A DNA stretch of 23,478 nucleotides, taken from positions 1 through 23,478 of the IMG/VR virus record IMGVR_UViG_3300024262_000250; one strand, written 5' to 3'. Origin of the DNA: a virus. Positions 2,900 to 23,310 of the stretch are shown here, piece by piece. Numbering within the stretch: the first letter of the stretch is position 1; each line of letters begins with the position of its first letter. The position numbers were made by a program, and so were the translations under genes. Below the pieces are notes generated by a model. It ran no database searches. It was not told the origin of the DNA and worked only from the letters and a program-made list of their open reading frames with translations.

Positions 2900-5016
2900 T
2901 TAACTATATCATATACGAATGTTAACACTCCTTGTTCTGTACAAATCAAATCAATGATTGGTATAGTACTTATATCCGCATTTGGTATAGTTGCTGCTAA
3001 TTTTCCATAAGCTCCCGTGTTTAATCTACTTGGTGCATCTGTAAATATTCTTATATTTCTAGATCCTATTAGTAGAGCATTATTAGTTGTTAGCCTCATA
3101 GTCTGTCCAGTCTTCCATGTAACAGCAGTATCATCAATAAAAATATCTAAATTACCACCTGCTTGATTAATAGTATCTAATCTTAGCATTTGTGTGTATG
3201 TACCTAATGTAGTAAATACTTGTGGTGACACTACATTTAAATTTAACGGTGCAGCTGTTGTTATTTGAATATCTGAATTATCAAATGGAATCATTAAGTT
3301 GTATGCTTGCACATTATTAGATACTTGTATTTGGTTAGGTGTATTTGTATTAATTGTGATACCTGAACCTTGTCTCACGACAGATGTATTATATTGTAGC
3401 GTAGTTGAAACTTGGCCATTTGCTAGCATTTGAATTTCATCTGAATTCTTAGCAATTAAATCTAACAGTGTAGTACTACTTGCAAAAGCTAAAGATGCAT
3501 TATCAAGTTGAGTTTGTAAACTATTAATTTGTGATTGTAAAAATGCAGAGGTACTAACAGAATTTAAAGTATTTTCTACTGATGCTAATCTAACCTCAAT
3601 ATCAGCAATCTCTAATTGCTGTCTTTGAAATATTTGTGCAGATGCTTGCAGCTGTGCAGATGCATCTGAAAAGAGACCCATTGAAAAAGTATTATAATCA
3701 TTAACAATTGTATCAATACCTGCACTACCAGGTGATGCATCAAATCTTAAATTAATTTTAAAGCCGTAACTATTACCATTTTGTCCAGTAACAGGATTTG
3801 GTTTATATTTTGGATATCTTTGTATATAACCACCATCTGTTGTCGGTGTTATATTATCAAGTAATAATAAACCGTAAAGGTTAGTAGTTGTTTTAGTAGA
3901 GTCACTAAGATCTACCATATCATAATAAACTAATACTGCATTAAATTCAAATGAAGCTGATAAACTAGTTCCATTAAATTGTGGAATAGTACTTATAGTA
4001 TTATCTGCTACAATTTGTTCATAGTCATTAGCAGTAAAATCTACACTAATTCCATCTAACTCACTTCTTAAATATGCAGATCCATTATATCCCGTTGGGT
4101 TATTATAATCAGCTTTATATTTTCTAATTTCAGCATTAAGTACACTTTCAAAAGTTGTAGGTTCTGTAAAGTATGCATCAGTAATCGAACTTGTAATACC
4201 TGGGCCTAATCCCATCCAATCTGCATCAGGATCAGTATAACCAGCAGGCCCTAATCCTTGTAGTTGTTGATCATAATCATACCAAGCTAATATATCTAAA
4301 CCTTGTGGATGTACCGTTGCGGAATTTCTTCCTAAGATATATTCACTTGATCCTTGGATTACTAGTGATGGCTGATAGTTTGTATCAGAGACTGAATTAA
4401 AGAGGATAGTAGGAGTTCCACCTACTTCTGTTGGTACATTAATATACAACTCTGTATAGGCCTCACCGGCTTTATCTACATTATTTACAATATCAATTCC
4501 ACCAATATATTTTACTACTTTTCTATATTGCCGAGAACCTGTTGTTACTTCATCTTCTTCTACAAATCTTAAACCGGTTGCAGTACCAGATTGCTCTAAT
4601 TCAGTAGCTTCTCTAAATCTTAGTGCACCGCATTCTTTTAGCCATTTAAAAAATACTCTTTCAGTTACAGATAAGTTTGTAGTGTTATCATAGGTTGAAT
4701 CACTAATTATAAGTTCTTCTAAATTTAGCGCGTAATTTTGAAGACTTTCAGTAAAATTAACATTAGGATCACCCTTTAAACCCCCACTCCATATTGCACC
4801 ATCAATAGTATCAAACTGCATATAGTTTTCCTTATTACTAAATGTAGTAGGATCCAATCTATCAAAGTCTGGTAAATTTAAAAGCACAAACTTAGAAAAG
4901 ACTAATTTAAGACCATCATTATTGAGAGTCCTAGACAAGTCTTTTGCAGCAGAAGAAAATGTATAAAAAGTTCCTCCGTCTGCTTGTGGTGTTCTGATTA
5001 AGGGCGTTGTTGCCAT
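2896..5016 (-). CDS. Virion structural protein with central coiled coil, probable baseplate/fibre protein
   Basis: This is a 706-residue protein starting MATTPLIRTPQADGGTFYTF. The first ~430 residues are beta-rich and mixed, with Tyr, Asp, Asn and Gly abundant and no enzyme motif that I recognise. Residues ~446-513 form a predicted coiled coil (QRQQLEIADIEVRLASVENTL, then SQINSLQTQLDNA), consistent with a trimeric stalk. The C-terminal ~190 residues are beta-rich again (SGITINTNTPNQIQVSNN and similar strands), like a fibre shaft or tip. This head-stalk-tip layout and its position between two other large beta-rich genes suggest a baseplate-associated fibre or peripheral wedge protein. T4 gp8, gp10 or gp11 would be positional counterparts, but I see no sequence proof. 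No signal peptide or membrane segment. Gaps are 23 bases on each side. Confidence 0.8.
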   Translation of the reverse strand: MATTPLIRTPQADGGTFYTFSSAAKDLSRTLNNDGLKLVFSKFVLLNLPDFDRLDPTTFSNKENYMQFDTIDGAIWSGGLKGDPNVNFTESLQNYALNLEELIISDSTYDNTTNLSVTERVFFKWLKECGALRFREATELEQSGTATGLRFVEEDEVTTGSRQYRKVVKYIGGIDIVNNVDKAGEAYTELYINVPTEVGGTPTILFNSVSDTNYQPSLVIQGSSEYILGRNSATVHPQGLDILAWYDYDQQLQGLGPAGYTDPDADWMGLGPGITSSITDAYFTEPTTFESVLNAEIRKYKADYNNPTGYNGSAYLRSELDGISVDFTANDYEQIVADNTISTIPQFNGTSLSASFEFNAVLVYYDMVDLSDSTKTTTNLYGLLLLDNITPTTDGGYIQRYPKYKPNPVTGQNGNSYGFKINLRFDASPGSAGIDTIVNDYNTFSMGLFSDASAQLQASAQIFQRQQLEIADIEVRLASVENTLNSVSTSAFLQSQINSLQTQLDNASLAFASSTTLLDLIAKNSDEIQMLANGQVSTTLQYNTSVVRQGSGITINTNTPNQIQVSNNVQAYNLMIPFDNSDIQITTAAPLNLNVVSPQVFTTLGTYTQMLRLDTINQAGGNLDIFIDDTAVTWKTGQTMRLTTNNALLIGSRNIRIFTDAPSRLNTGAYGKLAATIPNADISTIPIIDLICTEQGVLTFVYDIVK

Positions 5017-5039
5017 GTATAGTTTTTATCTTTTAATTA

Positions 5040-5681
5040 TTACGATATTACATATCCTGTTCCGCCTACTAGGAACCAAACTGCTACACCTGATCCATTA
5101 TCAACAGCTAACAGATGTACACTTTCTCCTATTGCGTTTAATGTTATAGTGTTAAGAGTAGCCCCAGGTAATACCATGTTATTTGCCACACCTGAAATAA
5201 CAACATCTCCACTACCTTCAGTACAGATAAAGAATATTTCTTGTCCTATACTTCCATTGTATAAAGTAATGTTTATAGCTGCTGCTGTCGCATTACCAAC
5301 TCTGTTCATAGTATATGCCGGTATTGCTGTACTTGTTCCTACAGGAATCGGGCTACCTCCAGCAAAAGTACTATTAAGTGTTTGTGGGTTTGTATCATTC
5401 CTAAATATACCAGCACCTGTCATATTTAAATTACCAGTCATTTTAACATTTGTTAAAATATCAAAAGTACTAGCATTTATATCTAGTAGTATTGTACTTA
5501 AACCTACTCTTAATGCTTCTGATGAAAGATTATTTAAATTAGTGATAGTTCCACCTGATGGTGAAAAGTATACCTCCATTGAATTAATCTCACTTGCAAG
5601 AACATTAAAGTTGTCATTGATTACCAGTCTTGAACCGGATAAGGAATCTGTTCCTAATATTTCTGTTACGCTAATTGCCAT
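5040..5681 (-). CDS. Beta-rich virion protein, possible fibre or decoration subunit
   Basis: This 213-residue protein starts MAISVTEILGTDSLSGSR. Around residues 16-34 it has SGSRLVINDNFNVLASEIN, a stretch of the kind seen at the N-terminus of phage appendage proteins. The rest is low in charge and rich in Gly, Asn, Thr, Ser and Ile (MTGNLNMTGAG, NMVLPGATLNTITLNAIGE), typical of a beta-helix or beta-sandwich shaft. No enzymatic residues are apparent. Its start lies inside the end of the 1101-residue gene (11-base overlap), which suggests translational coupling and matched expression. Its place between the gp7-position protein and two large outer proteins supports a structural role at the tail tip. 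The precise function is unknown. Confidence 0.78.
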   Translation of the reverse strand: MAISVTEILGTDSLSGSRLVINDNFNVLASEINSMEVYFSPSGGTITNLNNLSSEALRVGLSTILLDINASTFDILTNVKMTGNLNMTGAGIFRNDTNPQTLNSTFAGGSPIPVGTSTAIPAYTMNRVGNATAAAINITLYNGSIGQEIFFICTEGSGDVVISGVANNMVLPGATLNTITLNAIGESVHLLAVDNGSGVAVWFLVGGTGYVIS

Positions 5682-8600
5682 TTTGTTTTATTTGTTTTAT
5701 ATTTACGATATTTCTATCCTTTTTATATTTATTCCCATTCGTATCAGTAAGTTCTAATGATATCATATACTTTCCTGGGTCTTTAAAAAGATATGTTAAA
5801 TACTTGCTTTCAAAATATATATCAGCCACTGATGAGTTAGTAGTATTAGAGATGGTCCATTTAGGATCTGCCTTACCAACAATTCTACATTTATCATAGA
5901 CAAACATTGCCCATGTCATTGGTGGTAATACCTTTCCATCATTAATAAACTTAGCAGTACTCCATGTTGGGTTACTTGATATGCTCTGGCTTGACTTATA
6001 TATTCTACTTAAACAACCACCAGTAGCTTCACTATCACCAGTTGCAATACCTGTTCCACTTTCGCAAATTCTATTCCCGTTAACATCAACCATGTCTACT
6101 GATTTAAAATCACCAAACTTCCCATAATATCTAGATACGGCCTGTACATAAATTTGACTTCCACTTGCATTCATTACAAGATTATAGACATACTTATTAA
6201 TTATATTATTAGTGCTAACATTAAGTTGATTAACTGCCTCACTTAATGTATCAATAGTAAAATCAAAATACTCTGTACCCGTAACACCATTTGCATCTAT
6301 AATTTTTAAATAGCTATTAGGCTTTATTTGACTAAATTCAAAAAATGCAGGAGTATCACCAGTAGTTGCAGTCATATCCCACCACAAGTGATACGCATTA
6401 TTCCATGTAGAAGTTTTTGTATTTAAATTCTTCCACTGATAAGGTCCGCTAAAACTAGCTTTACCATTATTCTGATAATTCATTAATTGAAAGTCAGTGT
6501 TAGTTCCTATACCAAAAGTATTTAATATCGCATTGACTCTATCCAAAGAATCATATAAGCTTGGGGTTTCTTCATCCCATGTTGTAGAAGGTTCAATTGG
6601 CAAATTCCATAAAGATCCATAATCATTCCAGTTATATTTACCATCAACATTCCAAGTATATCTTCTCTTTCTACTTTGGTACCATCCTGAATATTCTACT
6701 TCTCTTTCATCAACACATATAGCTGAAGTTTTAACAGATGACGAAATATTATTATACAAATCAAACAATTTCATTTCTACATTATATTCACCAATATAAG
6801 GTAATGTAATAGGCAAAGTTCCATAAGTTCCAATTTCTCCTCTTATATTATAATAATATGCTGGAGATACATCTGATGCACTTTTGTAAATAGTCCATTC
6901 AATTTCTGTAAAGTTACCTGAACCTATACCAACCCAAGTAAATAAAGTTTCACCAGGTAACTGCGTTTCTGTATAAGCTCCACCGCTTGCGCTATTAATT
7001 AAAACTACAGATGGAACAAATCTATTAACATCATTACCATAACATCTAATACAGGGACCGATGTCATTCGTTATCTGAGACCAGTCAAACCATAACCACG
7101 GATCGGTCTGCGTAGTTTTTAATAATGCTACTTGATTGTATAGTGATGTTGTGATTGACTGTATTGTATCTCCAGCAACTACAGTATGAGTAGCACCTGT
7201 TGAAGTTGCAGGATCTGTTAAGTTGTAAACATCACCTACATTTGCACCCTGTACATTAAAATCAAAAGTAAAGAAATCATTTGCATTAGTTATCTGATTC
7301 CAAGTACTGCCTATGTTATTCCATGTTATGTTATTAAAGCTATCATTAGTTAATGTTATTAATGCTCCTGACGGAACACCTGGCTGATCTGGTAAACTTT
7401 TTGATGATTCGCCTGGTACATACTCAGCTAATGTTCTATTTAAGTTTGGTGCATATCTTGAAAAGTATGCAGCATATACTCCAGCCACATCTTGTATCTG
7501 CACATTTCCACCATCTTGCAAAGCACCAAGTACACTATTTGCATCTGGTCCTATGGGTGGTGGCGGTAAAACTTGGCCTGGTGTATAATCTATAACCATG
7601 TTTTGGCCTATTACTGCATTTCCTGCAGCAAGCGGTGCAACGTAAGCATTACAGAAATTAATTATAGCTTGGCCAATAACTGCTGATTCTTCTAAGCAAA
7701 ATGAATTAAAAGTTCTTAAATCTTCTAAGTAAGTACATGTACTAGGTAATACTTTAAAGTCTGTATTAATTCCTACTTTAATTGTATTTGTATCATTCCT
7801 ACTAATAGTATTGGTTACTTCCAATAAACCAAAATAATCAGCCTCTGCTGTTATATCTTTAATGTGTGCATTAAGTGGAAGATATTCTCTTTCTAATTTT
7901 CTCTTTAATCCAAATAGCTTAATTAAAACTTCCTCTATAGTAAAATCTTGCACCTCTTCTGTAACAGGTAAATCTTCATCTGTAAATTTATTAGGATTAA
8001 TTTTATTAATTCTATAGATAAGACTAAACATACTAGTCTTCCTAAAGTTTTTGTTTGGTAGTGTTATTGTAAGATCATTAAACTGAGCAGTAGGCGCAAA
8101 TAAATCAACATTATTACTTTGAATATAATTTCCAAATTGTGGAGAATTTGCATTAACATTTTTCCAGAATTCTTTAACCTTTAAATTGTTATATCCAAAA
8201 AACTTAATTGCATTTATTAAACCTCTATAAGAACCAATGAATGGGTAGATGTTACTACCTTCCATCATAATTTCTTTACGCTTAAGATTTATTTCTACAA
8301 AATCAGGTAACGCTTCTTTTAAATTAGTATCTCTAAAAATTGTACTATCTGACGCAATAACATTATAGCCCATGTTTTGCGTCATAACTCTTAATCTTTC
8401 ATCTTCCTCAATACTTTCGGCCCATATAGTAAATTCTGCAATAGTAGTATTGGTGCATGTGTCAACAATTAAAAGCTTTCTCTTATAGGTGTTTTCATTA
8501 CTAGAAGAAAATGCTATATTAAGTTGTAATGATTCTGATCTTATCTTATCACTAATAATAAACCCATCCGGGCTTATCGTTTGGTTAGGATCATAATCTA

Positions 8601-9253: not shown

Positions 9254-11110
9254 TTATTGTCCTCTTAATGTTTTTATTGTTGGTGAATTTTGCAATCTCC
9301 CAGTATTTAATCCTGCTGCATTTGCACCAGTCGCAATAGTAGTACCTCTGTTTCTTTTAACTGAATTATATTTTTCTTGCTGTATTTTATTGTAAAGATT
9401 ATTTTCAATACCTTCTTTATAGAATACATTTAATGAACTAATTTTATTAGCTTCTGGTATTGGTTCATAATAAGTACCATTTCTATCTTCCCAGCCACCT
9501 CTAATTATTGCTATATCATTATTTTCAATTATTACATCACCAAAACTATCTAATCCTAATTGTGGATCCTCGCCTTTCTTTAATACAATTTTTTTAGTTT
9601 CAATTAATACTCGTTGGTCTGTAATAGGATCAGTTCCATAAACAGGAATTTCATAATAACCATTTTTAATAGCAGTTTCATTTTCTTCTGAAATAAAGAA
9701 TACATTTACAGAATCAATACCATCTACATTTTCTATTATTGAAATAATATCAGAGCGAGGTATTCTATCTCTTCTGTTTACATTTAAAAAATATTGATCT
9801 AGATTTTTTCTTATTTCAATTCTTATTTCATCTTTATCATAATTTTCAAACCATCTAACTACAATATTTAATGCATATTTTTTAATGATAGGGTCTACTA
9901 TTCTAGTCTCAGCTGTAACAACTTGCCTTCCACTTTTGTTTAATATTTCATAAGTCATTTCCTTTTCAGCATCAGTCATTGTAAATTCAACCTCAGGGAT
10001 ACTGAAATAATCTATATCACTAGTAAGTTTCTTTTTTACATCAGGAACTAAGAATAAGTAAATAATATTATCATCATCTAAGTATTGATCATTCTTTGTG
10101 TTATAAGCATCTATAAAAGACCAGAAGTCATACTTACTTAAATAGTAAATATAATTATTAGGATTTGCTAATACAAATGAATTACTTGCATAAGGTGCAA
10201 TTAATCTAGTAAATGCAGGATCTTCGGAATCAGAACCAAACATTGGATTCCTTGTAATATTCATAGAAAGAATTTCATTTAAATCCACCTCTTCGCCAGA
10301 CGGGTTTGTGCCCGGGTCTACAAACTTCATATCTATTTGCTTCCCTCCTATATTACCAGCAGCACCTCTTGTCTTTACATAAGTAATTCTAATTCTAGAT
10401 CCTAATGCAGGAGAAATACCAAATTGATTAGTCCCAAAGAATACACTCAACCCACCCGTCACACTAGTTTTAACCATTGCAGCAGTTTCACCAGGGTTCA
10501 TATCATATATAGAATCTACTAATTTCCATCTTTTACCATCTACAAAAACCTCAACTAAAAATTGATCTGTAGGATCTTTTGTAATTAAATTGTAACTCTG
10601 TAAAGCTAAACCTGAACCAGTAAAACTTTGCTCATCTTTTTCTCCTTGTATTATTTCAACATTGACAAAAGCATTTGTAGTTTTATCTAATCTTATGAAG
10701 TCACTATCAAATTTTAAAAAGTAAGTTAAATTGTTCTGGCTAATTTCTAAACTAGCACCATTCATGATCTGTACGTAATCACCACTAAGAAGAGTAGACG
10801 CACTTGTATTCAAACGTAATCCAATTATACCTCTTGCTGATATTCCTCGCGTAGGGTCATGACCAGTCAATCTAGATAGACCATATATTGATTCTATGTT
10901 TCGTGCACGTGCTATATTTGACTCTGTTGCAATAGCCTCTATATAAAAGAATATTAATTCTCCTAAATTAGACACTACAGTTAACACTTGCCCGAATGGA
11001 GATGCAGGTGTAAATGTTTCTATCGCTTGGTCATAAGTACGCTGGAGATATTCAAATGAATCTTCAAATAATTCCGTTGCCTTTATTCTTGTTTTACTAA
11101 AAAATGACAT
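9254..11110 (-). CDS. gp6: Baseplate wedge protein, gp6 / baseplate J-like
   Basis: This 618-residue protein has the layout of T4 gp6 and P2 gpJ. An N-terminal helical region contains SPFGQVLTVVSNLGELIFFYIE (~38-59) and RLTGHDPTRGISARGIIGLR (~80-99), the segment in which J-like proteins carry their conserved Pro/Gly pattern. Next is a beta domain with VKTRGAAGNIGG (~245-256), a typical J-family turn. The region around ~430-460 contains IPRSDIISIIENVDGIDSVN, matching the conserved C-terminal alpha/beta part. In T4, gp6 forms the iris-like ring joining wedges around the hub. It lies 13 bases after gp25, the expected W-J order, which strengthens the call. The C-terminal ~40 residues are Asn/Thr/Gly-rich and probably flexible. 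The leader lacks a Shine-Dalgarno. Confidence 0.88.
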   Translation of the reverse strand: MSFFSKTRIKATELFEDSFEYLQRTYDQAIETFTPASPFGQVLTVVSNLGELIFFYIEAIATESNIARARNIESIYGLSRLTGHDPTRGISARGIIGLRLNTSASTLLSGDYVQIMNGASLEISQNNLTYFLKFDSDFIRLDKTTNAFVNVEIIQGEKDEQSFTGSGLALQSYNLITKDPTDQFLVEVFVDGKRWKLVDSIYDMNPGETAAMVKTSVTGGLSVFFGTNQFGISPALGSRIRITYVKTRGAAGNIGGKQIDMKFVDPGTNPSGEEVDLNEILSMNITRNPMFGSDSEDPAFTRLIAPYASNSFVLANPNNYIYYLSKYDFWSFIDAYNTKNDQYLDDDNIIYLFLVPDVKKKLTSDIDYFSIPEVEFTMTDAEKEMTYEILNKSGRQVVTAETRIVDPIIKKYALNIVVRWFENYDKDEIRIEIRKNLDQYFLNVNRRDRIPRSDIISIIENVDGIDSVNVFFISEENETAIKNGYYEIPVYGTDPITDQRVLIETKKIVLKKGEDPQLGLDSFGDVIIENNDIAIIRGGWEDRNGTYYEPIPEANKISSLNVFYKEGIENNLYNKIQQEKYNSVKRNRGTTIATGANAAGLNTGRLQNSPTIKTLRGQ

Positions 11111-11123
11111 TTAATTTTCTTTT

Positions 11124-11486
11124 TTAAAAAAGAGCCCCTATAACTCTTTGTTCATTTACAAATATATCAACAAATGCTCCATCCCTTTCAGCAGTCGAAA
11201 AAAAGCTTACCGTACAATTAACTGTAAATCCAGCTATATTAGGTAAGCAGTATGCGGTGATCTGGTTATTAATCTGATTTTGTATAGTGTTCTCATTTAA
11301 TACTAATGAAAATATCAAATCATTTAAATTTGCACCCATTCCTGGAGCACCTAGCACATCACCTTTCCTGGTAAATAAACAATTTTCTATCTTTAAAATT
11401 AATTGAGATAATGTATCGCTTACTTCTAACGTAGAATCATTATAGTTGGTCGACTCTATGTCTCGGCTATAGATATCTCTTATCAT
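11124..11486 (-). CDS. gp25: Baseplate wedge protein, gp25 / gpW family
   Basis: This 120-residue protein matches the usual length of the GPW/gp25 family. The diagnostic middle is RKGDVLGAPGMGANLNDLIF (~40-59), equivalent to the family's R-x-G-x-x-x-x-P-x-x-G pattern followed by a leucine/phenylalanine-rich helix. The C-terminal half has the alternating strands of the fold (FTVNCTVSFF, GAFVDIFVNEQRV). The helix NTIQNQINNQITAYCLP precedes them, as expected. In contractile tails gp25 sits in the wedge, helps nucleate sheath assembly and binds gp6 and gp53. Its place directly before a gp6 homologue is the classic arrangement and is the strongest evidence for a contractile-tail phage. The leader contains an exact AT box but no Shine-Dalgarno. 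Confidence 0.93.
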   Translation of the reverse strand: MIRDIYSRDIESTNYNDSTLEVSDTLSQLILKIENCLFTRKGDVLGAPGMGANLNDLIFSLVLNENTIQNQINNQITAYCLPNIAGFTVNCTVSFFSTAERDGAFVDIFVNEQRVIGALF

Positions 11487-11546: not shown

Positions 11547-12410
11547 TTATCCAGTAAAAAAATAATCAACACCCTCATCATTCTTAATTTCCTCAACTAC
11601 TCTATCCACTTCTTCTCTACCTTCGCTTGAGATTAGATCATAATTAATTGTAATATTACCTGGAAGATTAAAAGAAAATGTTCCTAGAATTCTAGCCAAT
11701 TGTATTTTAGCTTGTCCAATACAATATCTTATAAAAGCTTCATCTTGGAATAGCGCACAATCAGGGATAGTTGAAAAGATTTCAAATATAACAGCTTGTT
11801 TAGGTAATTCACCTTGGAATCTAAATTTCTTAGTTAATCTATTATAAGTATATGATATTTGTGGTAAAAGAACTTGTCTTGCATTATCCATGAATAATGA
11901 GTTAACTACATAATACATTAAATTTTCACTACCTAGCCCCGCACCATAAACATCACTATAAATAAACTTATCAATTGAAAAATCTACATCACCTGCATTA
12001 AAGCTTGTACTACCAAAACCACCATCTTCGCCACTAAAGCCACCAATTTCAAATACAGCATTAACTGAATAAACCCTGGATGGCATTTGTACTATCCCTC
12101 TAGGATTAGTAATATTTTTCTTGTTTGTTATAGTTTCATTACTAGATCCAGTCCCATACGGTACTCCTTGTCTAAAATCAGCTTTAGCAAGTGCCCCTGC
12201 TGGTAAAGCAATATACATCTGTTCTACACTGTCTTCATATATTTTATAAAAGTAACCTTTTGCTCTTTGGATAATGTGTGCTAGCTCTTTTTTAGGAACT
12301 GTGAAAGGTAACTGACATGCAATTGTTAAGTCGTCATTAATTTCATTAATTAGCGCATCTAGGCATGCTGCTTCGTCTGGATCATTACAATAAGTATTTG
12401 GATTAGCCAT
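11547..12410 (-). CDS. Virion structural protein, possibly neck/tail-completion type
   Basis: The gene encodes 287 residues, starting MANPNTYCNDPDEAACLDAL. The C-terminal third is the most characteristic part: DEAFIRYCIGQAKIQLARIL (~223-242), then FSFNLPGNITINYDLI and a final charged helix (EEVDRVVEEIKNDEG). A helix, then a LPG-x-ITIN turn, then a long helix is reminiscent of neck/completion proteins such as T4 gp13. The middle (residues ~105-200) is beta-rich and Gly/Phe-rich. Six bases separate it from the amidoligase gene upstream, and a 60-base gap separates it from gp25 downstream. A neck protein would be out of T4 order here, so a wedge-associated protein is also possible. The virion role is likely; the exact identity is not established. 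Confidence 0.7.
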   Translation of the reverse strand: MANPNTYCNDPDEAACLDALINEINDDLTIACQLPFTVPKKELAHIIQRAKGYFYKIYEDSVEQMYIALPAGALAKADFRQGVPYGTGSSNETITNKKNITNPRGIVQMPSRVYSVNAVFEIGGFSGEDGGFGSTSFNAGDVDFSIDKFIYSDVYGAGLGSENLMYYVVNSLFMDNARQVLLPQISYTYNRLTKKFRFQGELPKQAVIFEIFSTIPDCALFQDEAFIRYCIGQAKIQLARILGTFSFNLPGNITINYDLISSEGREEVDRVVEEIKNDEGVDYFFTG

Positions 12411-12416
12411 GTTAAT

Positions 12417-13709
12417 TTATATTTTTTCTATTTCTATAATTTCGGTATTTTCAAATTTTGCAAATTCAGTAGCCCTGCCTAGTCTAAATATACCACCTTC
12501 CATATCCCCACTAAATACACCACGTGGCCCAAAGACATATGAATCTTTAACTACCACGTTTTTACTTACATAAGAATCTTCTATCTTAGAACTAGTAGCA
12601 TCAGTAGCACCAAACAGATTACACATCATCATTGATGAATTAATTAATTCAGTACTGAATATATCACAACCAATAATGTTACCTTGTATTTTACAATCAA
12701 CAATATCAATTCCACTTATTTCGAAACATTTCATTAATTCAGCATTCTTAAGTTGCATTTTACCGGTATCAGCATCATAATTAATTAAACCTTCTTTCAA
12801 ACCAGCCTTTGTTAATAACTCAAATATCTTTTCCCTCATCTTAGGATAAAATGTTTCTACTATCTGGTCATAAGTCTTTAAGTCAACCATTAACTTAATC
12901 TTAGGATACTTTCTTTTAAATGCAGAATAAGTTTTATATGATTCAATTACGCTTTTATGTTTTTCTAATAATGAATCTAGTATTTTTAAATCATTTTCAT
13001 TATATACTGGATCAACTAAACTTTCATAAAGAGATAAGACAAAATGTTCTGTCATGTTTAATATTGTATTGTACTTCTTTTCATAATCTGCACCACCTAA
13101 ATATCTAAACTCAATATAGTTCTTTGGTAATTTTGAAAAGTTTACACCATAATATTTTTCAGACACAAACATGTAGTTCTTCCATGAAATTCTTCCAGGG
13201 GAAGGTTGAGTCATACCGCTAAGAGGCACAATAAACTTTATAGATTTAGCATAAACAGAATCTCTTCTATTTGGGAATGCTTCATATACGGTTTCTTCGT
13301 TGAAGTTAAGTACAAATTTACCAATATCTAAAGATGATACGTTAGTACCTGGTCCTAATTTTTTACCATCAAATGCAACATTAATATGAATACTACATCG
13401 CTCGTTAGTAGATCCATTTTCACGAATCCACTTTAGAGTTTTTGCTATAATAAGTTTTGATTCAACGAAAGGCATTGGCCCAGTTACCAATTCAATCATA
13501 CCAGATCCACCAGAATTATCTGGCTCTAATTTGAATATTTCATCGGATGGTGTAAATTCACTGTGTGCCTTTACTTCTACTCTTATTTGCTTATTAAGAG
13601 CTTGTGACAGGCTTCGTTTAACCTCGTCCATACCTTCATTGGCAAAGAATTCAAATTCAATTCCAATCTTAGATCCATATATTGCATTTAGCTGTTCGTT
13701 AGTGTACAT
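12417..13709 (-). CDS. Putative amidoligase (glutamine-synthetase fold) fused to a pentapeptide-like beta-helix
   Basis: This 430-residue protein has two parts. Residues ~10-210 show the residues expected of the amidoligase/COOH-NH2 ligase superfamily: GIEFEF at 16-21 (acidic metal ligands E18 and E20), LEPDNSGGSGMIELVTGP at 61-78 (E62, D64, E73), CSIHINV at 105-111 (H108) and YIEFRYLGG at 198-206 (E200, R202). Known members use ATP to form an amide bond between a carboxylate and an amine. A helical linker (~210-305) follows. Residues ~320-430 have regular hydrophobic steps (AELMKCFEISGIDIVDCKIQ and onward) like a pentapeptide-repeat right-handed beta-helix. Substrate is unknown; candidates are peptidoglycan-type peptides, a virion protein or a small metabolite. 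It is not a usual tail component. The leader carries a hairpin. Confidence 0.8.
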   Translation of the reverse strand: MYTNEQLNAIYGSKIGIEFEFFANEGMDEVKRSLSQALNKQIRVEVKAHSEFTPSDEIFKLEPDNSGGSGMIELVTGPMPFVESKLIIAKTLKWIRENGSTNERCSIHINVAFDGKKLGPGTNVSSLDIGKFVLNFNEETVYEAFPNRRDSVYAKSIKFIVPLSGMTQPSPGRISWKNYMFVSEKYYGVNFSKLPKNYIEFRYLGGADYEKKYNTILNMTEHFVLSLYESLVDPVYNENDLKILDSLLEKHKSVIESYKTYSAFKRKYPKIKLMVDLKTYDQIVETFYPKMREKIFELLTKAGLKEGLINYDADTGKMQLKNAELMKCFEISGIDIVDCKIQGNIIGCDIFSTELINSSMMMCNLFGATDATSSKIEDSYVSKNVVVKDSYVFGPRGVFSGDMEGGIFRLGRATEFAKFENTEIIEIEKI

Positions 13710-13751: not shown

Positions 13752-14894
13752 TTATGCCATGTTCATAGTAATCTTTCGATCGCTAACATTAACACTTCCA
13801 ATCTTAACATTAACAGAATCACCTTTTGTTAGATTTGCATCTTTTAGTTTAGATTTGTGGATTAAACCACTTATACCTTTTTCTAATTCAACAAAGGCAC
13901 CGTATGATGTTATCTTAGTAACCTTACCTTCAGTCACCATCATAGGTTTATATTTTTCATCTATACCATCCCATAAATCAACTTTAGGACCTAATTGGCT
14001 TAGAATGATTTTCTTTTCAGAAATAATTTCTTTAGCCCAGAATTCAATTTCATCACCGGGTTTTATATTGCCTTTATCTAATGAGTTTATAGTTTCTTCT
14101 GTTAATTCAGCCTTAGGTATTAAACCTGTTAGACATTCATCAAATTGTGCAAATATACCAAACTTAGTAGCTCCTGTTACAAAACCTTTTCTTGGCTCCT
14201 TTATTGTATCAGTTAATTGATCAATAGTAATAGGAATCATTGTTCTTAAATATTCTCTATGTGATACTACGATAGTATTTTTTTCTTTTGAAAATATAAT
14301 TGGCATTACTATAATCTCTTTACCAACCAATGAATCAAAATCGTGTAACTTATTTAGCCCACCTAATGAACCTGGCATAAAACATTGAATTCCTGCAACA
14401 TCTACCCAGTAACCACCATGAATTAATTCTTTTACCAATGCAGTAAATCCAACTGACTTATTACCAATTGCTTCCTTAAGTTCTTTTAATTTAACTTCTA
14501 ATATTGCATCACTAATAGAAGCAAGAACATCACCAGTCTTTGTATTAGTTTTAATTTTTACATCAATTTCTATTCCTAGTTCTAACTGTTCAACAATATA
14601 TTCAGGTTCTTTTGACAATACACAATACGCAGTATGCTTAGACCCAATATCAATAAGTGCTCTAGATCTATCATCAGATATAAAAGTAACCGTGCCTCTT
14701 GTAGTATAAGAAATACGATCTTCTGTTAATTGAGTTTTAGCAAGCATAGCATCAGTAAGCCCATACATAGATAAAGTATCAGCTGCATATGATTCATTAC
14801 TCATCAATTTTGTACCATGTGGTACTTGTACTTTTATTACTTTTGTATCAAATGGATCATCACTTAATTGGATTGTGATTTCTTGTTCTGTCAT
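13752..14894 (-). CDS. Phage S1-repeat protein (ribosomal protein S1-like)
   Basis: This 380-residue protein appears to consist of four S1/OB-fold repeats after a ~60-residue N-terminal extension: ~66-129, ~148-212, ~235-302 and ~321-380. The last two are clearest, with RKGFVTGATKFGIFAQFDECLTGLIP and GKVTKITSYGAFVELEKGISGLIH as the G-x-V-x-x-x-x-x-x-G-x-F-V strand pattern. Repeat 2 ends in IVVSHREYLR, very like bacterial S1 proteins. S1 repeats bind single-stranded, usually A/U-rich RNA. bS1 helps load mRNA on the 30S subunit; others occur in Rho, PNPase and RNase E. There is no nuclease domain and the length is shorter than most bS1. It could bias ribosomes to phage mRNA or protect or sequester RNA. 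It has the longest upstream gap of the window (93 bases), with an AT box and an inverted repeat. Confidence 0.88.
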   Translation of the reverse strand: MTEQEITIQLSDDPFDTKVIKVQVPHGTKLMSNESYAADTLSMYGLTDAMLAKTQLTEDRISYTTRGTVTFISDDRSRALIDIGSKHTAYCVLSKEPEYIVEQLELGIEIDVKIKTNTKTGDVLASISDAILEVKLKELKEAIGNKSVGFTALVKELIHGGYWVDVAGIQCFMPGSLGGLNKLHDFDSLVGKEIIVMPIIFSKEKNTIVVSHREYLRTMIPITIDQLTDTIKEPRKGFVTGATKFGIFAQFDECLTGLIPKAELTEETINSLDKGNIKPGDEIEFWAKEIISEKKIILSQLGPKVDLWDGIDEKYKPMMVTEGKVTKITSYGAFVELEKGISGLIHKSKLKDANLTKGDSVNVKIGSVNVSDRKITMNMA

Positions 14895-15275: not shown

Positions 15276-15287
15276 TTTATATATTAA
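15276..15287 (-). promoter_or_regulatory. AT-rich leader box before the small spike-associated gene
   Basis: The minus strand reads TTAATATATAAA, 18 bases before the ATG at 15257. It overlaps the stop codon of the spike gene. It shares the ATATATAA core with the other boxes. Confidence 0.3.
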
Positions 15288-16222
15288 TCGGTTGTATTCT
15301 TAGAACTTAAAGATGGCGCAGTGACTGACATTGGTGGAGATGTTGGTCTACCTGCATTACCTATATGAGTATGTGAATCAAATATACCTGCAAAAGTATC
15401 ACCCTTAATAACAGCTTCTGCTGCTGCTTCACCTAACTTAATTCTTGGCGAATTAATATGAGCCTCACCTGTTGCAGTAATCTTTGCATTTACACAATTA
15501 ATATTTGTATCAGCTGTTGCATTAACTATAAAATTAGTATCTGTATTTATGACTGTATCAGCTCCACTATTAATAGTAAAAACAGCAGAATGAGTAAATG
15601 TTATATTTCCATCATTAAGCATTACGATAGAATCACCGTTTGCATTTATTATTTCAACTGAATTATCTGGTTTTATATTAACAGTAGTTGGACCTTCGGC
15701 TGTTGTATAGTCCATCATCAAGCCTTTTTCTTCTGTAAAGAAAACTTTAATATGTTCACCTTCCCTTTCGTTAGTTACTTCAGAAACACCATCTTGTAAT
15801 TCACCAGTTAAACCGAATGCAGTATCATAAACTAATACATGTGAGTTTTGATATGCCGCTTCTATTTCAGCTTTTGTTTCATCTGATGGGTAAACGTTTT
15901 CATGATAAACCGGTTGATAAAAATTTCCATTGTCAAAAGTGACCCTAACAATAGATCCTAGTTTAGGTATTTCAAACTTACCACTTCCAGTAGCACTACC
16001 ACCATACATTAACTGATGTGGTCTTGCCCATGGTAATGTTGCAGTAGGAATCTTATATGCACTTTCAGGATTTTCAGGATCAACCCTATCATCCAGCTTT
16101 CCATATACTCTTATCTTACAGCGACCTTCAAAAATATCATCGGCAGTATCTTCTACAATACCAATCCATTGAGTACTTCTTAAATCATCTGCATTAAAAT
16201 TTGCTGGATTTACTTTTCCCAT
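15284..16222 (-). CDS. gp5: Baseplate spike protein, gp5/gpV-like, without lysozyme domain
   Basis: This 312-residue protein has an N-terminal OB-fold domain at ~15-112 (WIGIVEDTADD, CKIRVYGKLDD, ATLPWARPHQL, PKLGSIVRVTFDNGN), the strand pattern and P-x-x-G-x-x-V-x-V element of gp5/VgrG/gpV spikes. Residues ~180-270 are short alternating strands (NSVEIINANGDSIVMLNDGN, then ADTVINTDTNFIVNATADTN), a triple-stranded beta-helix. The C-terminus has FDSHTHIGNAGRPTSPP (~281-297), the D-x-H-T-H ... P-P ending known from gpV-type spikes. T4 gp5 carries a lysozyme domain between OB fold and helix; here the ~70-residue linker has no room for one. Its ATG overlaps the preceding stop by one base (TAATG). 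It should cap the hub and puncture the outer envelope. Confidence 0.88.
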   Translation of the reverse strand: MGKVNPANFNADDLRSTQWIGIVEDTADDIFEGRCKIRVYGKLDDRVDPENPESAYKIPTATLPWARPHQLMYGGSATGSGKFEIPKLGSIVRVTFDNGNFYQPVYHENVYPSDETKAEIEAAYQNSHVLVYDTAFGLTGELQDGVSEVTNEREGEHIKVFFTEEKGLMMDYTTAEGPTTVNIKPDNSVEIINANGDSIVMLNDGNITFTHSAVFTINSGADTVINTDTNFIVNATADTNINCVNAKITATGEAHINSPRIKLGEAAAEAVIKGDTFAGIFDSHTHIGNAGRPTSPPMSVTAPSLSSKNTTD

Positions 16223-21661: not shown

Positions 21662-22217
21662 AGCTATTAAGATACTTATTAATGTCTAGCGCATTTCTTT
21701 CAAATTTATCAGCCCAACCTTTTTTATATCTAGCATCAAATTCTTTTGGGCTATCTAATGAAAGAGGTCCTTTAAAAAATGGCCTAGTAGAGATATCTCT
21801 TATTTCTTTTAGGTTTTTAGAAATCATATAAAATTGAACTTTTTCAAATAATTCTGAAAGTCCAATTTTTGTTTTTGTGCACATAACAGATTCTATAACA
21901 ACATAAAAACGCTCGCGGTCTTTATCATTTAATCGATCTTCTAATGCTTTAGTTGTTTTAAAGTCCTCTGATTTAAGAATCATTTTTCTTGCTCGGTTTT
22001 CAAACTCATGCCTGAAATTCATACCAAAGAAATGTTGTTTTAAAAATTTCATATTATCATAAAGTTTAATAATACGAATTTGATAAAGAGGATTTACGGG
22101 ATCCCATTTAGAATCTAAGATAACACCTTTGACTGGCAAAAGTATATTAGGATTTGTATGAGATGCTAATAAGCAATATACAAATTGTCCTTTATTAAAT
22201 ATTCTGTGGGTTTTCAT
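21654..22217 (-). CDS. Hypothetical phage protein, 187 residues
   Basis: I do not recognise this family. The N-terminal ~55 residues (FNKGQFVYCLLASH, LLPVKGVILDSKW, LYQIRIIKLYDNM) look like a small five-stranded barrel, similar in outline to SH3/KOW-type modules. The rest is helical and basic, with FENRARKMILKSEDFKTTK (~70-88), ALEDRLNDKDRERFYVVIES (~91-110) and a C-terminus rich in Lys, Arg and Asp. No catalytic motif, signal peptide or membrane segment is visible. The start overlaps the stop of the previous gene by four bases (ATGA), a sign of coupling to the two genes upstream. Since it directly precedes the baseplate block, an assembly or regulatory role is possible, but nothing in the sequence decides this. 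Confidence 0.72.
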   Translation of the reverse strand: MKTHRIFNKGQFVYCLLASHTNPNILLPVKGVILDSKWDPVNPLYQIRIIKLYDNMKFLKQHFFGMNFRHEFENRARKMILKSEDFKTTKALEDRLNDKDRERFYVVIESVMCTKTKIGLSELFEKVQFYMISKNLKEIRDISTRPFFKGPLSLDSPKEFDARYKKGWADKFERNALDINKYLNSLG

Positions 22218-22606
22218 TCAAATTCTATTATGTCATCGAATAGCGTAGCAGTACCGTTGACATTAATATCAGGTGAATGATAAATTTTATAAGTAATAGG
22301 TTTAGTGGATAATGATTCTACATATTGTTTAATTCCACCAACTGTTTCTTTGTTAAGATTTCCTAATACATAAAATATTGTAGTAGATAAGTTACGAGAT
22401 ATCGCATTTTGTAATTGCCTCATTAAATAAGATGATACCACGGCATCTGATGGTTCAAATTGATAAAAATCATTTTTAGTGAGCTTATTAAATATATCCA
22501 TGTAATTTATACACTCCATACTTCTAGGAACGTTCCCTAAAAATGTCTTAACGCGCAATGCATCACTAGAGTATATGAAATTAAATTCTATATGTTCTTC
22601 TTCCAT
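22214..22606 (-). CDS. Hypothetical phage protein, 130 residues
   Basis: Unrecognised protein starting MEEEHIEFNFIYSSDALRV. Strand-helix-strand runs are visible: IEFNFIYSS, then LSTTIFYVLGNL, KETVGGIKQYVESLS and ITYKIYHS. This suggests a small alpha/beta domain resembling a Rossmann or P-loop half, but there is no G-x-x-x-x-G-K-S/T motif, so nucleotide binding is not supported. The C-terminus is acidic (LFDDIIEFE). Its ATG lies 19 bases inside the end of the 110-residue gene and its stop overlaps the next start by four bases, so the three genes are read as a coupled set. An AAGGA 9 bases before the ATG could serve as a Shine-Dalgarno, though it also codes for the upstream protein. Confidence 0.72.
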   Translation of the reverse strand: MEEEHIEFNFIYSSDALRVKTFLGNVPRSMECINYMDIFNKLTKNDFYQFEPSDAVVSSYLMRQLQNAISRNLSTTIFYVLGNLNKETVGGIKQYVESLSTKPITYKIYHSPDINVNGTATLFDDIIEFE

Positions 22607-22920
22607 TCTTCTAATTCCTTAAGCTCATTCTTAAGTCTTTTTATTTTAAATTCAATATCTTTAGCAGTAGGTTCATAATGAGATCCCCACTGTGCATTAA
22701 TATCCAATACATCCTTATCAAATTTACTACCAAGTTCTAAGCCTAGATCATCACACAAGTCAAAAAAGAATCTTTTTATATAACTATATTTACTCTTATC
22801 TATTTCGTGTGTTTCATAAACATCAGTAGAAGTAAAATGTTCTCTCCCGCCACCATGATTATCATCAACAACTTTTTTGATTACACCATTTCTGGCAGGC
22901 TCTAAAATTATTTTAATCAT
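22588..22920 (-). CDS. Hypothetical phage protein, 110 residues, with C-terminal coiled coil
   Basis: Unrecognised protein starting MIKIILEPARNGVIKKVVDD. A beta-rich N-terminus is followed by a Gly-rich HGGGREH turn (~22-28), a helical middle (YIKRFFFDLCDDLGLELGSKF) and a strongly charged C-terminal helix of Lys, Glu and Leu (FKIKRLKNELKELEEWKK, ~91-108), which probably makes a short coiled coil. The ATG follows directly on the stop of the previous gene with no spacer (TAAATG), and its end overlaps the next gene by 19 bases, so translation is coupled on both sides. A weak AAAGG precedes the start. The function is unknown; the coiled coil points to a protein partner. Confidence 0.7.
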   Translation of the reverse strand: MIKIILEPARNGVIKKVVDDNHGGGREHFTSTDVYETHEIDKSKYSYIKRFFFDLCDDLGLELGSKFDKDVLDINAQWGSHYEPTAKDIEFKIKRLKNELKELEEWKKNI

Positions 22921-23310
22921 TTACGACCTTTCTTGCAATTTTAAACTAAGTTCTTTTATTGTTTTTCTAGCTACTTTTTTATCAGTGTGCCATGTAGATT
23001 TATCTTTAATCATAAAAAAAGAATAAGCCTCTCTTAACTGTTCTATTTCTTTATCAGTATAACCTTCTTCTCTCCAGTTTGAAATTTTTGTAGATTCAAT
23101 TTCCTCTAATCTTGCAAAGTTAGCTTTTTCACTTCTTTCTACATTTGCTTGATGGATTTCAGTTCCACTAATGCTTAACTCTTTACAAAGTTTAGACCAT
23201 TCAGTTAAACTTAATTTACTTTTTTGTTTTAAAAATCCTTGGTGAGCCATTGCTTTTCTTCGCTGGCTACGATTAGGTATTGTTTGAGTTTGTGTAGTAG
23301 TGTCTTTCAT
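22921..23310 (-). CDS. Hypothetical basic phage protein, 129 residues
   Basis: Unrecognised protein. The first ~32 residues are basic and polar, with PNRSQRRKAMAHQGFLKQKS (~12-31), an N-R-x-x-R-R-K signature that recurs at the N-terminus of small phage proteins and could bind nucleic acid. The rest appears fully helical and highly charged (WSKLCKELSISGTEIHQANV, YTDKEIEQLREAYSFFMIKD, KTIKELSLKLQERS). No signal peptide or enzyme motif. It is the first gene after a 39-base gap holding an exact AT box 8 bases before the ATG, so it may start a transcription unit covering the four small genes. It abuts the next gene with no spacer. Confidence 0.7.
   Translation of the reverse strand: MKDTTTQTQTIPNRSQRRKAMAHQGFLKQKSKLSLTEWSKLCKELSISGTEIHQANVERSEKANFARLEEIESTKISNWREEGYTDKEIEQLREAYSFFMIKDKSTWHTDKKVARKTIKELSLKLQERS

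Follow-up and report, generated by a model that had tools for sequence, protein, structure and literature searches.

A predicted glutamine-synthetase-fold amidoligase with a beta-helix tail in the baseplate block of a wide group of huge phages

The window analysed in this work, which is the whole 23,478-base stretch of virus record IMGVR_UViG_3300024262_000250, carries among its baseplate genes a single gene that resembles the amidoligases, enzymes of the glutamine-synthetase (GS) fold. The locus raises the question of whether such an enzyme belongs to the structural block as a rule and, if so, what it may do there.

The amidoligase-like gene and its operon

The gene, which is the sole match to its family in the record, codes for a protein of 430 aa, as judged from the open reading frame and its relatives. 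The coordinates given in an earlier note on this DNA proved correct once read on the minus strand, the plus-strand translation of the same positions being full of stops. The gene is part of a long run of minus-strand late genes transcribed in the order spike, an 89-aa ORF, S1-like gene, amidoligase-like gene, neck-like gene, gp25-like wedge and J-like wedge, with the following positions:

15284..16222, minus strand: baseplate spike/hub gene (phrog_37871, E 5.1e-14; PF04717, E 0.0017, below the cut-off)
13752..14894, minus strand: ribosomal-protein-S1-like gene, 380 aa, adjoining the ligase gene upstream (rpsA model TIGR00717, E 3.7e-39 with most of the protein covered, below the curated cut-off; PF00575, 6.7e-19)
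12417..13709, minus strand: amidoligase-like gene, 430 aa (stop codon at 12417-12419)
11547..12410, minus strand: neck or head-tail adaptor-like gene, 287 aa, downstream of the ligase gene (phrog_211 "head-tail adaptor Ad2", E 7e-11)
11124..11486, minus strand: gp25-like baseplate wedge gene (phrog_43, E 1.6e-4)
9254..11110, minus strand: baseplate J-like wedge gene (phrog_219, E 1e-24; PF04865, E 0.0048, below the cut-off)

The ligase gene is separated from the S1-like gene by 42 bases and from the neck-like gene by 6 bases. It was previously described as lying between the spike and wedge genes, which holds for its placement but leaves out the 89-aa ORF, the S1-like gene and the neck-like gene situated in the same interval.

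Five genes of the window are preceded by A-rich leaders, most of them without an obvious Shine-Dalgarno sequence, as is expected for a Bacteroidota host. The slot between the spike and S1-like genes varies among phages, its ORFs being very different and ranging from 89 to about 1,700 aa (for instance, 4599-6059 in locus L219, 3392-6196 in L246 and 1088-6190 in L278), and five of these variable ORFs gave no Pfam match at E<=0.001.

Sequence family and conserved residues

All the motifs quoted in the earlier note are present in the predicted protein, namely GIEFEF at residues 16-21, LEPDNSGG...IELVTGP at 61-78, CSIHINV at 105-111 and YIEFRYLGG at 198-206. Their conservation was assessed in a set of 257 sequences comprising the window protein and 256 sequences of more than 250 aa (L070, L104-L106 and L177 were dropped as copies), which fall into 48 greedy clusters at 70% identity and 16 at 50% identity, with gaps set aside:

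13647..13664, minus strand: motif G-x-E-x-E-F (GIEFEF), residues 16-21; E18 and E20 unchanged in 252/252 ungapped rows
13476..13526, minus strand: motif EPDxSGG...ELVTGP, residues 62-78; D64 and S66 unchanged in 255/255 ungapped rows, E73 in 256/256
13371..13397, minus strand: motif CSIHINVAF, residues 105-113; position 108 is H in 180 rows and Q in 76, position 110 is N in 180, S in 49 and G in 27
13092..13157, minus strand: motif KYYGVNF...YIEFRYLGG, residues 185-206; K185, N190, E200, R202 and G205 unchanged in 257/257 rows

E138 is likewise unchanged (256/256 ungapped rows), R148 is retained in 255/256 rows and K131 in 251/256, and the five rows with gaps at E18/E20 start at contig ends. 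In GS-fold ligases the E-x-E, the acid following it, the H and the E-x-R serve as metal and substrate residues.

The E-x-E, D-x-S, E-x-V-[ST]-P/G-P and IEFR motifs occur in the window protein in this order, which agrees with the order G-x-E-x-E, D-x-S, E-x-V-[ST]-P, C-x-x-H, N, IEFR in phage GS-fold amidoligases (PF12224) such as CW02 gp9, Salgado gp98 and FP_Taranis gp81. The agreement in motif order, noted before from the letters alone, is above chance: when the 62-row family alignment was compared by hhalign with ten annotated phage amidoligases, the probability was 94.2% (E 1.2e-7) and the score 60.6, against 22.4 for the best of 100 column shuffles and 17.0 for the reversed profile, while a further profile comparison with the phage amidoligases gave 92.3% (E 5.4e-7) over 212 columns with the motifs in register. 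The search with the Amidoligase_2 model of Pfam, proposed earlier as a check, came out divided. The window protein alone matched nothing in Pfam or NCBIfam at E<=10, thus failing the curated cut-off of PF12224 (22 bits), whereas 21 of the 67 aligned family members matched Amidoligase_2 and 34 matched Pentapeptide_4, in both cases at E<=0.01. Against PHROGs the window protein gave one unnamed family (E 9.8e-6) and one chance-level match.

The window family differs from the canonical phage amidoligases, at least 90% of the ten of which have H-x-H, in having H-x-N, Q-x-S or Q-x-G at positions 108 and 110. As the window protein itself has H-x-N in place of the H-x-H of the C-G-x-H-V-H motif, it is filed as a diverged relative and not as a canonical GS-fold amidoligase. 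With glutamine synthetases, represented by an alignment of six sequences, the family gave no profile-level sequence match in the local mode of hhalign (score 15.6, below the best shuffle of 23.2), and even the canonical amidoligases barely match them (23.9 against a best shuffle of 21.2). By prediction and profile, membership of the GS-fold amidoligase family is firm.

The 256 rows with letters at positions 108 and 110 include 179 with H-x-N, 48 with Q-x-S, 27 with Q-x-G and one each with H-x-S and Q-x-N. Glutamine at position 108 prevails in the sister-clade set fetched with a wedge protein (L219-L297), where it was found in 72 of the 74 lettered rows and where the ligases are 31-38% identical to that of the window. 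L162, L175 and L176 also carry Q for H108, and across this clade the Q is nearly always accompanied by S or G for N110. Of the four residues E18, E20, H108 and R202, which had been expected to be conserved in homologues, three are unchanged and H108 gives way to Q in 76 of the 256 rows. At one site for metal or substrate the family thus departs from the canonical phage amidoligases, and the clade with Q possibly has a different metal or substrate site.

This variation, together with the missing sequence match to glutamine synthetase and the near-obligatory presence among structural genes described below, could also mean that the protein is a dead enzyme, its GS fold and beta-helix now being merely a structural part of the baseplate or neck. 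Since E18, E20, D64, S66, E73, E138, K185, N190, E200 and R202 are unchanged down to the 31% identity of the sister clade, we regard this as rather improbable. The protein is likely to be an active amide ligase, with a real question over the clade in which H is changed to Q.

Predicted structure

The predicted protein consists of two parts:

12810..13709, minus strand: glutamine-synthetase-fold domain, residues 1-300, boundary approximate (AlphaFold model and PDB matches)
12420..12809, minus strand: C-terminal pentapeptide-type beta-helix with its cap, residues 301-430 (pLDDT 96 for the model of the tail alone; R409 in 256/256 ungapped rows)

The AlphaFold model of the whole protein, built with the 62-row alignment, has a pLDDT of 91.0 and a pTM of 0.84. 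Its 26 Foldseek matches in the PDB at E<=0.001 are glutamine synthetases or their homologues and one bifunctional glutathione synthetase, with TM-scores by query length as low as 0.24-0.31 because the tail and a part of the domain are unaligned. The best 50 PDB rows of VIA-align are all glutamine synthetases or other members of the GS family (GmaS, 1-naphthylamine GS), with Z from 12.4 to 10.8, rmsd from 3.2 to 4.7 and 170-206 residues aligned; for glutamine synthetase itself the values are Z 12.4, rmsd 3.4 and 185 residues. GS entries dominate these lists, and families ranking below them may match as well. Among viral models, the best match is the uncharacterised protein A0A6J5PQ40 from an uncultured Caudovirales phage, which aligns over the full length with TM-scores of 0.90/0.88 and 23% identity, and the named structural matches ranking below the best relative are mostly called amidoligase, which is a further likeness to the phage GS-fold amidoligases. 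As a prediction, the glutamine-synthetase fold of residues ~1-300, which had been proposed before any model was built, is firm.

The tail of about 110 residues, likewise suggested in advance to be a pentapeptide-like beta-helix, is modelled as such. The pentapeptide pattern and the beta-helix fold are found at the level of the family, the profile of which matches pentapeptide-repeat proteins in the PDB (the best is MfpA, E 2.6e-5). The tail alone gave no Foldseek match in the PDB at E<=0.001, and its best VIA-align match is a pentapeptide-repeat fusion (Z 10.1, 118 residues, rmsd 2.5), with autotransporters and pectate lyases scoring close behind, so the pentapeptide assignment leans on sequence as well. 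In comparison with the pentapeptide-repeat proteins MfpA, Qnr and NP275-NP276, to which it is similar in tail fold and profile, the window protein has the tail fused to a ligase, and other beta-helices match it nearly as well. The conserved cap motif G-x-M-x-G-G-[IV]-F-R-x-G (residues 401-411) closes the beta-helix, and a cap profile found no match at E<=0.01 in other ORFs of L001-L186. A search of the same loci with the tail profile revealed one ORF outside the family with tail-like stretches and no cap (L107 11204-12688, E 6.5e-8), and a tail-only search of phage records yielded nothing beyond the records of the family.

Linkage to the baseplate block

Contigs fetched with the J-like wedge protein of the window carry the ligase gene in 43 of 49 loci, many of which lie on contigs from the other scans, and in all six misses the wedge gene is located at most 1.4 kb from the contig end on the ligase side. 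When an alignment led by a divergent wedge protein was used instead, which sampled mostly the sister clade (the best 80 of 464 relatives, with 79 new loci counted), the ligase was found in 75 of 79, always with 80 or more tail residues. Three of the misses, L226, L251 and L272, are cut by the contig end, and the fourth, L292, possesses wedge genes and no ligase in the 6 kb upstream, which makes it the sole uncut miss of the two wedge-seeded scans. Because the sister-clade wedge alignment was drawn from ligase-bearing loci, the sample covers phages with wedge genes close to these, those with remote wedge genes lying outside it. The placement beside the spike and wedge genes is thus stable in related phages, and the description of an enzyme in the structural block as unusual needs qualifying for them, as this position is their norm and all but one of the ten misses are loci truncated by the end of a contig.

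Of the 182 loci fetched with the ligase, 174 contain within 10 kb a member of one or more of ten tail-block families taken from the window; the ten include some families of no known function, and the 182 loci, from which L070 and L104-L106 were dropped, include near-identical contigs. None of the ten families was found within this distance in L006, L107, L109, L114, L124, L139, L142 and L146. Of the 42 rearranged loci L107-L148, 33 have a 615-type or neck gene within 5 kb (615-type in 26, neck in 8, neither in 9). The nine large genes near the megaphage ligases mostly gave no clear match in PHROG, one of them being a homing endonuclease. The dN/dS values of the ligase gene (0.080-0.114) are similar to those of the wedge gene (0.088-0.159) in five orthologue pairs, which are rough estimates as dS is 0.9-1.4.

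Across a wide range of huge phages the ligase gene is therefore a near-obligatory part of the baseplate module, and its tie to the baseplate block is new; among the titles and abstract openings found in the literature there was no description of a baseplate-linked amidoligase family. Its retention, as faithful as that of the tail genes, suggests that the making or the use of the virion involves a chemical step not recognised so far.

A host-protein modifier or counter-defence enzyme riding in the late operon would be expected to behave otherwise, as accessory genes are usually patchy. Given that in the two wedge-seeded scans the ligase is lacking from just a single uncut contig and that its dN/dS is wedge-like, we consider such a role very unlikely, even though jumbo phages carry other predicted host-modifying peptide ligases of the R2K ATP-grasp type, according to the excerpted text of PMC7824862.

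The S1-like neighbour

The S1-like gene directly upstream suggests a different explanation, in which it forms one unit with the ligase that would modify either the S1-like protein of the phage or a ribosomal protein of the host and so steer late translation, the linkage to the baseplate reflecting nothing but shared late timing. A modification of this kind is known from RimK, which ligates glutamates to ribosomal protein S6. Overlap between the S1 and ligase ORFs was seen at 49 loci, nearly all from the sister clade (40 if only ATG starts are allowed); by a slightly narrower count it affects 44 of the 67 loci measured in the sister-clade set. Every one of the 71 sister-clade loci in which S1 was matched also has the ligase, and clear S1-like genes (E < 1e-14) were detected in 8 of 12 related phage records, with weak single-domain matches in two more. 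However, the overlap occurs in merely 2 of the 127 loci measured outside the sister clade, and the neck gene is placed as tightly, lying at most 50 bases from the ligase in 207 of the 210 loci where it is within 1.5 kb. Two of the 12 records searched, Atu_ph07, which has the ligase, and G053, gave no S1 match. In megaphages the S1 gene is unlinked from the ligase, which mostly remains near a 615-type or neck gene, while in 3 of 6 regions the S1 gene itself belongs to the same gene run as a member of the window's 957-aa family, from which three ORFs separate it. Even where they are separated, S1 and the ligase tend to stay with genes of the tail block, and for this reason a role in the tail is preferred over a pure pairing with S1, which we take to be unlikely.

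Comparison with known amidoligases

In the excerpted texts of PMC5498523 and PMC10580990, phage amidoligases are predicted to be accessory or wall-modifying genes with putative substrates, and wall modification is proposed for the phage amidoligase cassettes. By analogy with the cassettes of podophages, the ligase of the window might modify peptidoglycan peptides or metabolites, for example for superinfection exclusion, and might even be carried by the tail. Five of nine annotated phage amidoligase stretches (CW02, the Arthrobacter phages Salgado and Kharcho, TPDSL_ph1 and NatCom_6392) do have an amidotransferase, ATP-grasp or cyclotransferase gene near the amidoligase, but no such partner was detected among the window genes searched (all but three small ORFs at 22214-23310), GATase_6 was found in none of the eight records of the window family, and GGACT was found in four of the eight, where by linear coordinates it lies at least some 24 kb away from the ligase. 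A cell-wall function thus appears improbable to us, with the reservation that the partners are also missing in the other four of the nine annotated stretches, which makes their absence weak evidence.

In contrast to the phage GS-fold amidoligases named above, the window family combines the enzyme with a C-terminal beta-helix and a place in the baseplate operon. The annotated amidoligase of Porphyromonas phage phage018a_AFR5B1 (L189) lies between adaptor and neck genes, in a block that includes the portal gene, and adjoins HicAB-like genes, so a position in the structural block may not be special to the window family. For the idea of folate/polyglutamate in the T4 baseplate, no usable literature was found.

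Distribution in huge phages

In a tblastn search of 50,697 phage records, eight contained relatives: six of these are from uncultured phages and measure 462-735 kb, and Agrobacterium phage Atu_ph07 is represented by the other two. LR756501.1 and LR756503.1 are of equal length and have the same match in the same place, so they are probably one genome deposited twice. Genomes of 634, 636, 642 and 735 kb are called the largest in the excerpted text of PMC7162821. In IMG/VR, the first scan for relatives gave 63 loci, the second gave at least 566 relatives among the 598 pattern matches listed, and a scan with a megaphage query gave at least 491 among 598 listed, with at most 80 loci kept per scan. 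In bacterial genomes one of 29 pattern matches is a relative; as its metagenome-assembled contig of 5.9 kb has neck and wedge genes too, it is likely to be of phage origin.

The relative in Atu_ph07 (AUZ94978.1, which appears to correspond to the UniProt entry A0A2L0UZM1 "Amidoligase enzyme") is a structural match to the window protein (E 3.7e-12) with 26% identity over 54% of the query, and it differs in a large insertion and in aligning over little of the beta-helix. With 30.7 bits it is the sole one among the six large records to exceed the PF12224 cut-off, which is also passed by the L186 gene with 22.1 bits. The gene occupies 155929-157431, with the portal gene two genes away, and would be gp196 if counted from gp198 and gp200; this numbering would put it inside CDS 170-215, which the excerpted text of PMC6102473 gives as one of three clusters with the majority of the 131 virion proteins identified by mass spectrometry.

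Proposed function

The explanation that we tentatively favour, well short of confidence, is that the protein is an ATP-dependent carboxylate-amine ligase of the GS fold belonging to the late tail/baseplate module and modifying a tail or baseplate protein in a broad group of huge phages. It builds on the predicted fold, the homology, the conservation of the motifs, the operon position and the near-obligatory presence, on top of which it postulates that ATP is used, that amides are formed, that the enzyme docks and that the acceptor is a tail protein. In this scheme E18, E20, E73 and E200, with D64 nearby, would hold metals and ATP in a GS-like pocket, a carboxylate would be activated as an acyl phosphate, and the amine to which this is joined would be bound close to R202, K185 and N190. 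The beta-helix at the C terminus might dock the enzyme on a baseplate or neck partner, and the acceptor could be a tail protein, modified at a side chain or chain end during assembly. As the Atu_ph07 relative aligns little of the beta-helix, such docking cannot be general.

The tail ligase is favoured by the motif residues being unchanged across the 48 and 16 clusters mentioned above and by the Atu_ph07 relative with its putative place in a cluster rich in virion genes. What counts against it is the S1-like neighbour, which fits a role outside the virion, the variation of H108, the lack of an hhalign match to glutamine synthetases, the eight of 182 loci with no tail-block family within 10 kb and L292. 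A tail protein as the acceptor is a leading guess drawn from the position, a role with S1 or in translation coming next.

It is also conceivable, if somewhat doubtful, that huge phages, by inference including the four largest of the 2020 survey, build their tails with a self-encoded GS-fold amide ligase of the late operon. Such an enzyme would modify or cross-link a protein of the baseplate or neck, or the S1-like protein, by covalent bonds, and it would be no less indispensable than the wedge proteins. The near-obligatory place in the baseplate block narrows the substrate candidates to the S1-like, neck, gp25, J-like and spike proteins. If a tail protein is the acceptor, covalent modification driven by ATP would be among the central steps by which some of the largest bacterial viruses build their tails.

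Other GS-related genes in huge phages

The phages RaK2, XacN1 and 121Q gave no relative at E<=0.01. Salicola phage SCTP-2 (L218) possesses two distant relatives in tandem, gp124 and gp125, both annotated as hypothetical and situated near a ClpP-like gene. The 507,910-base record G047, from which L118 comes, has at 341742-342437 a match to the glutamine synthetase catalytic domain itself (E 2.4e-15), in this case in the genome of a huge phage.
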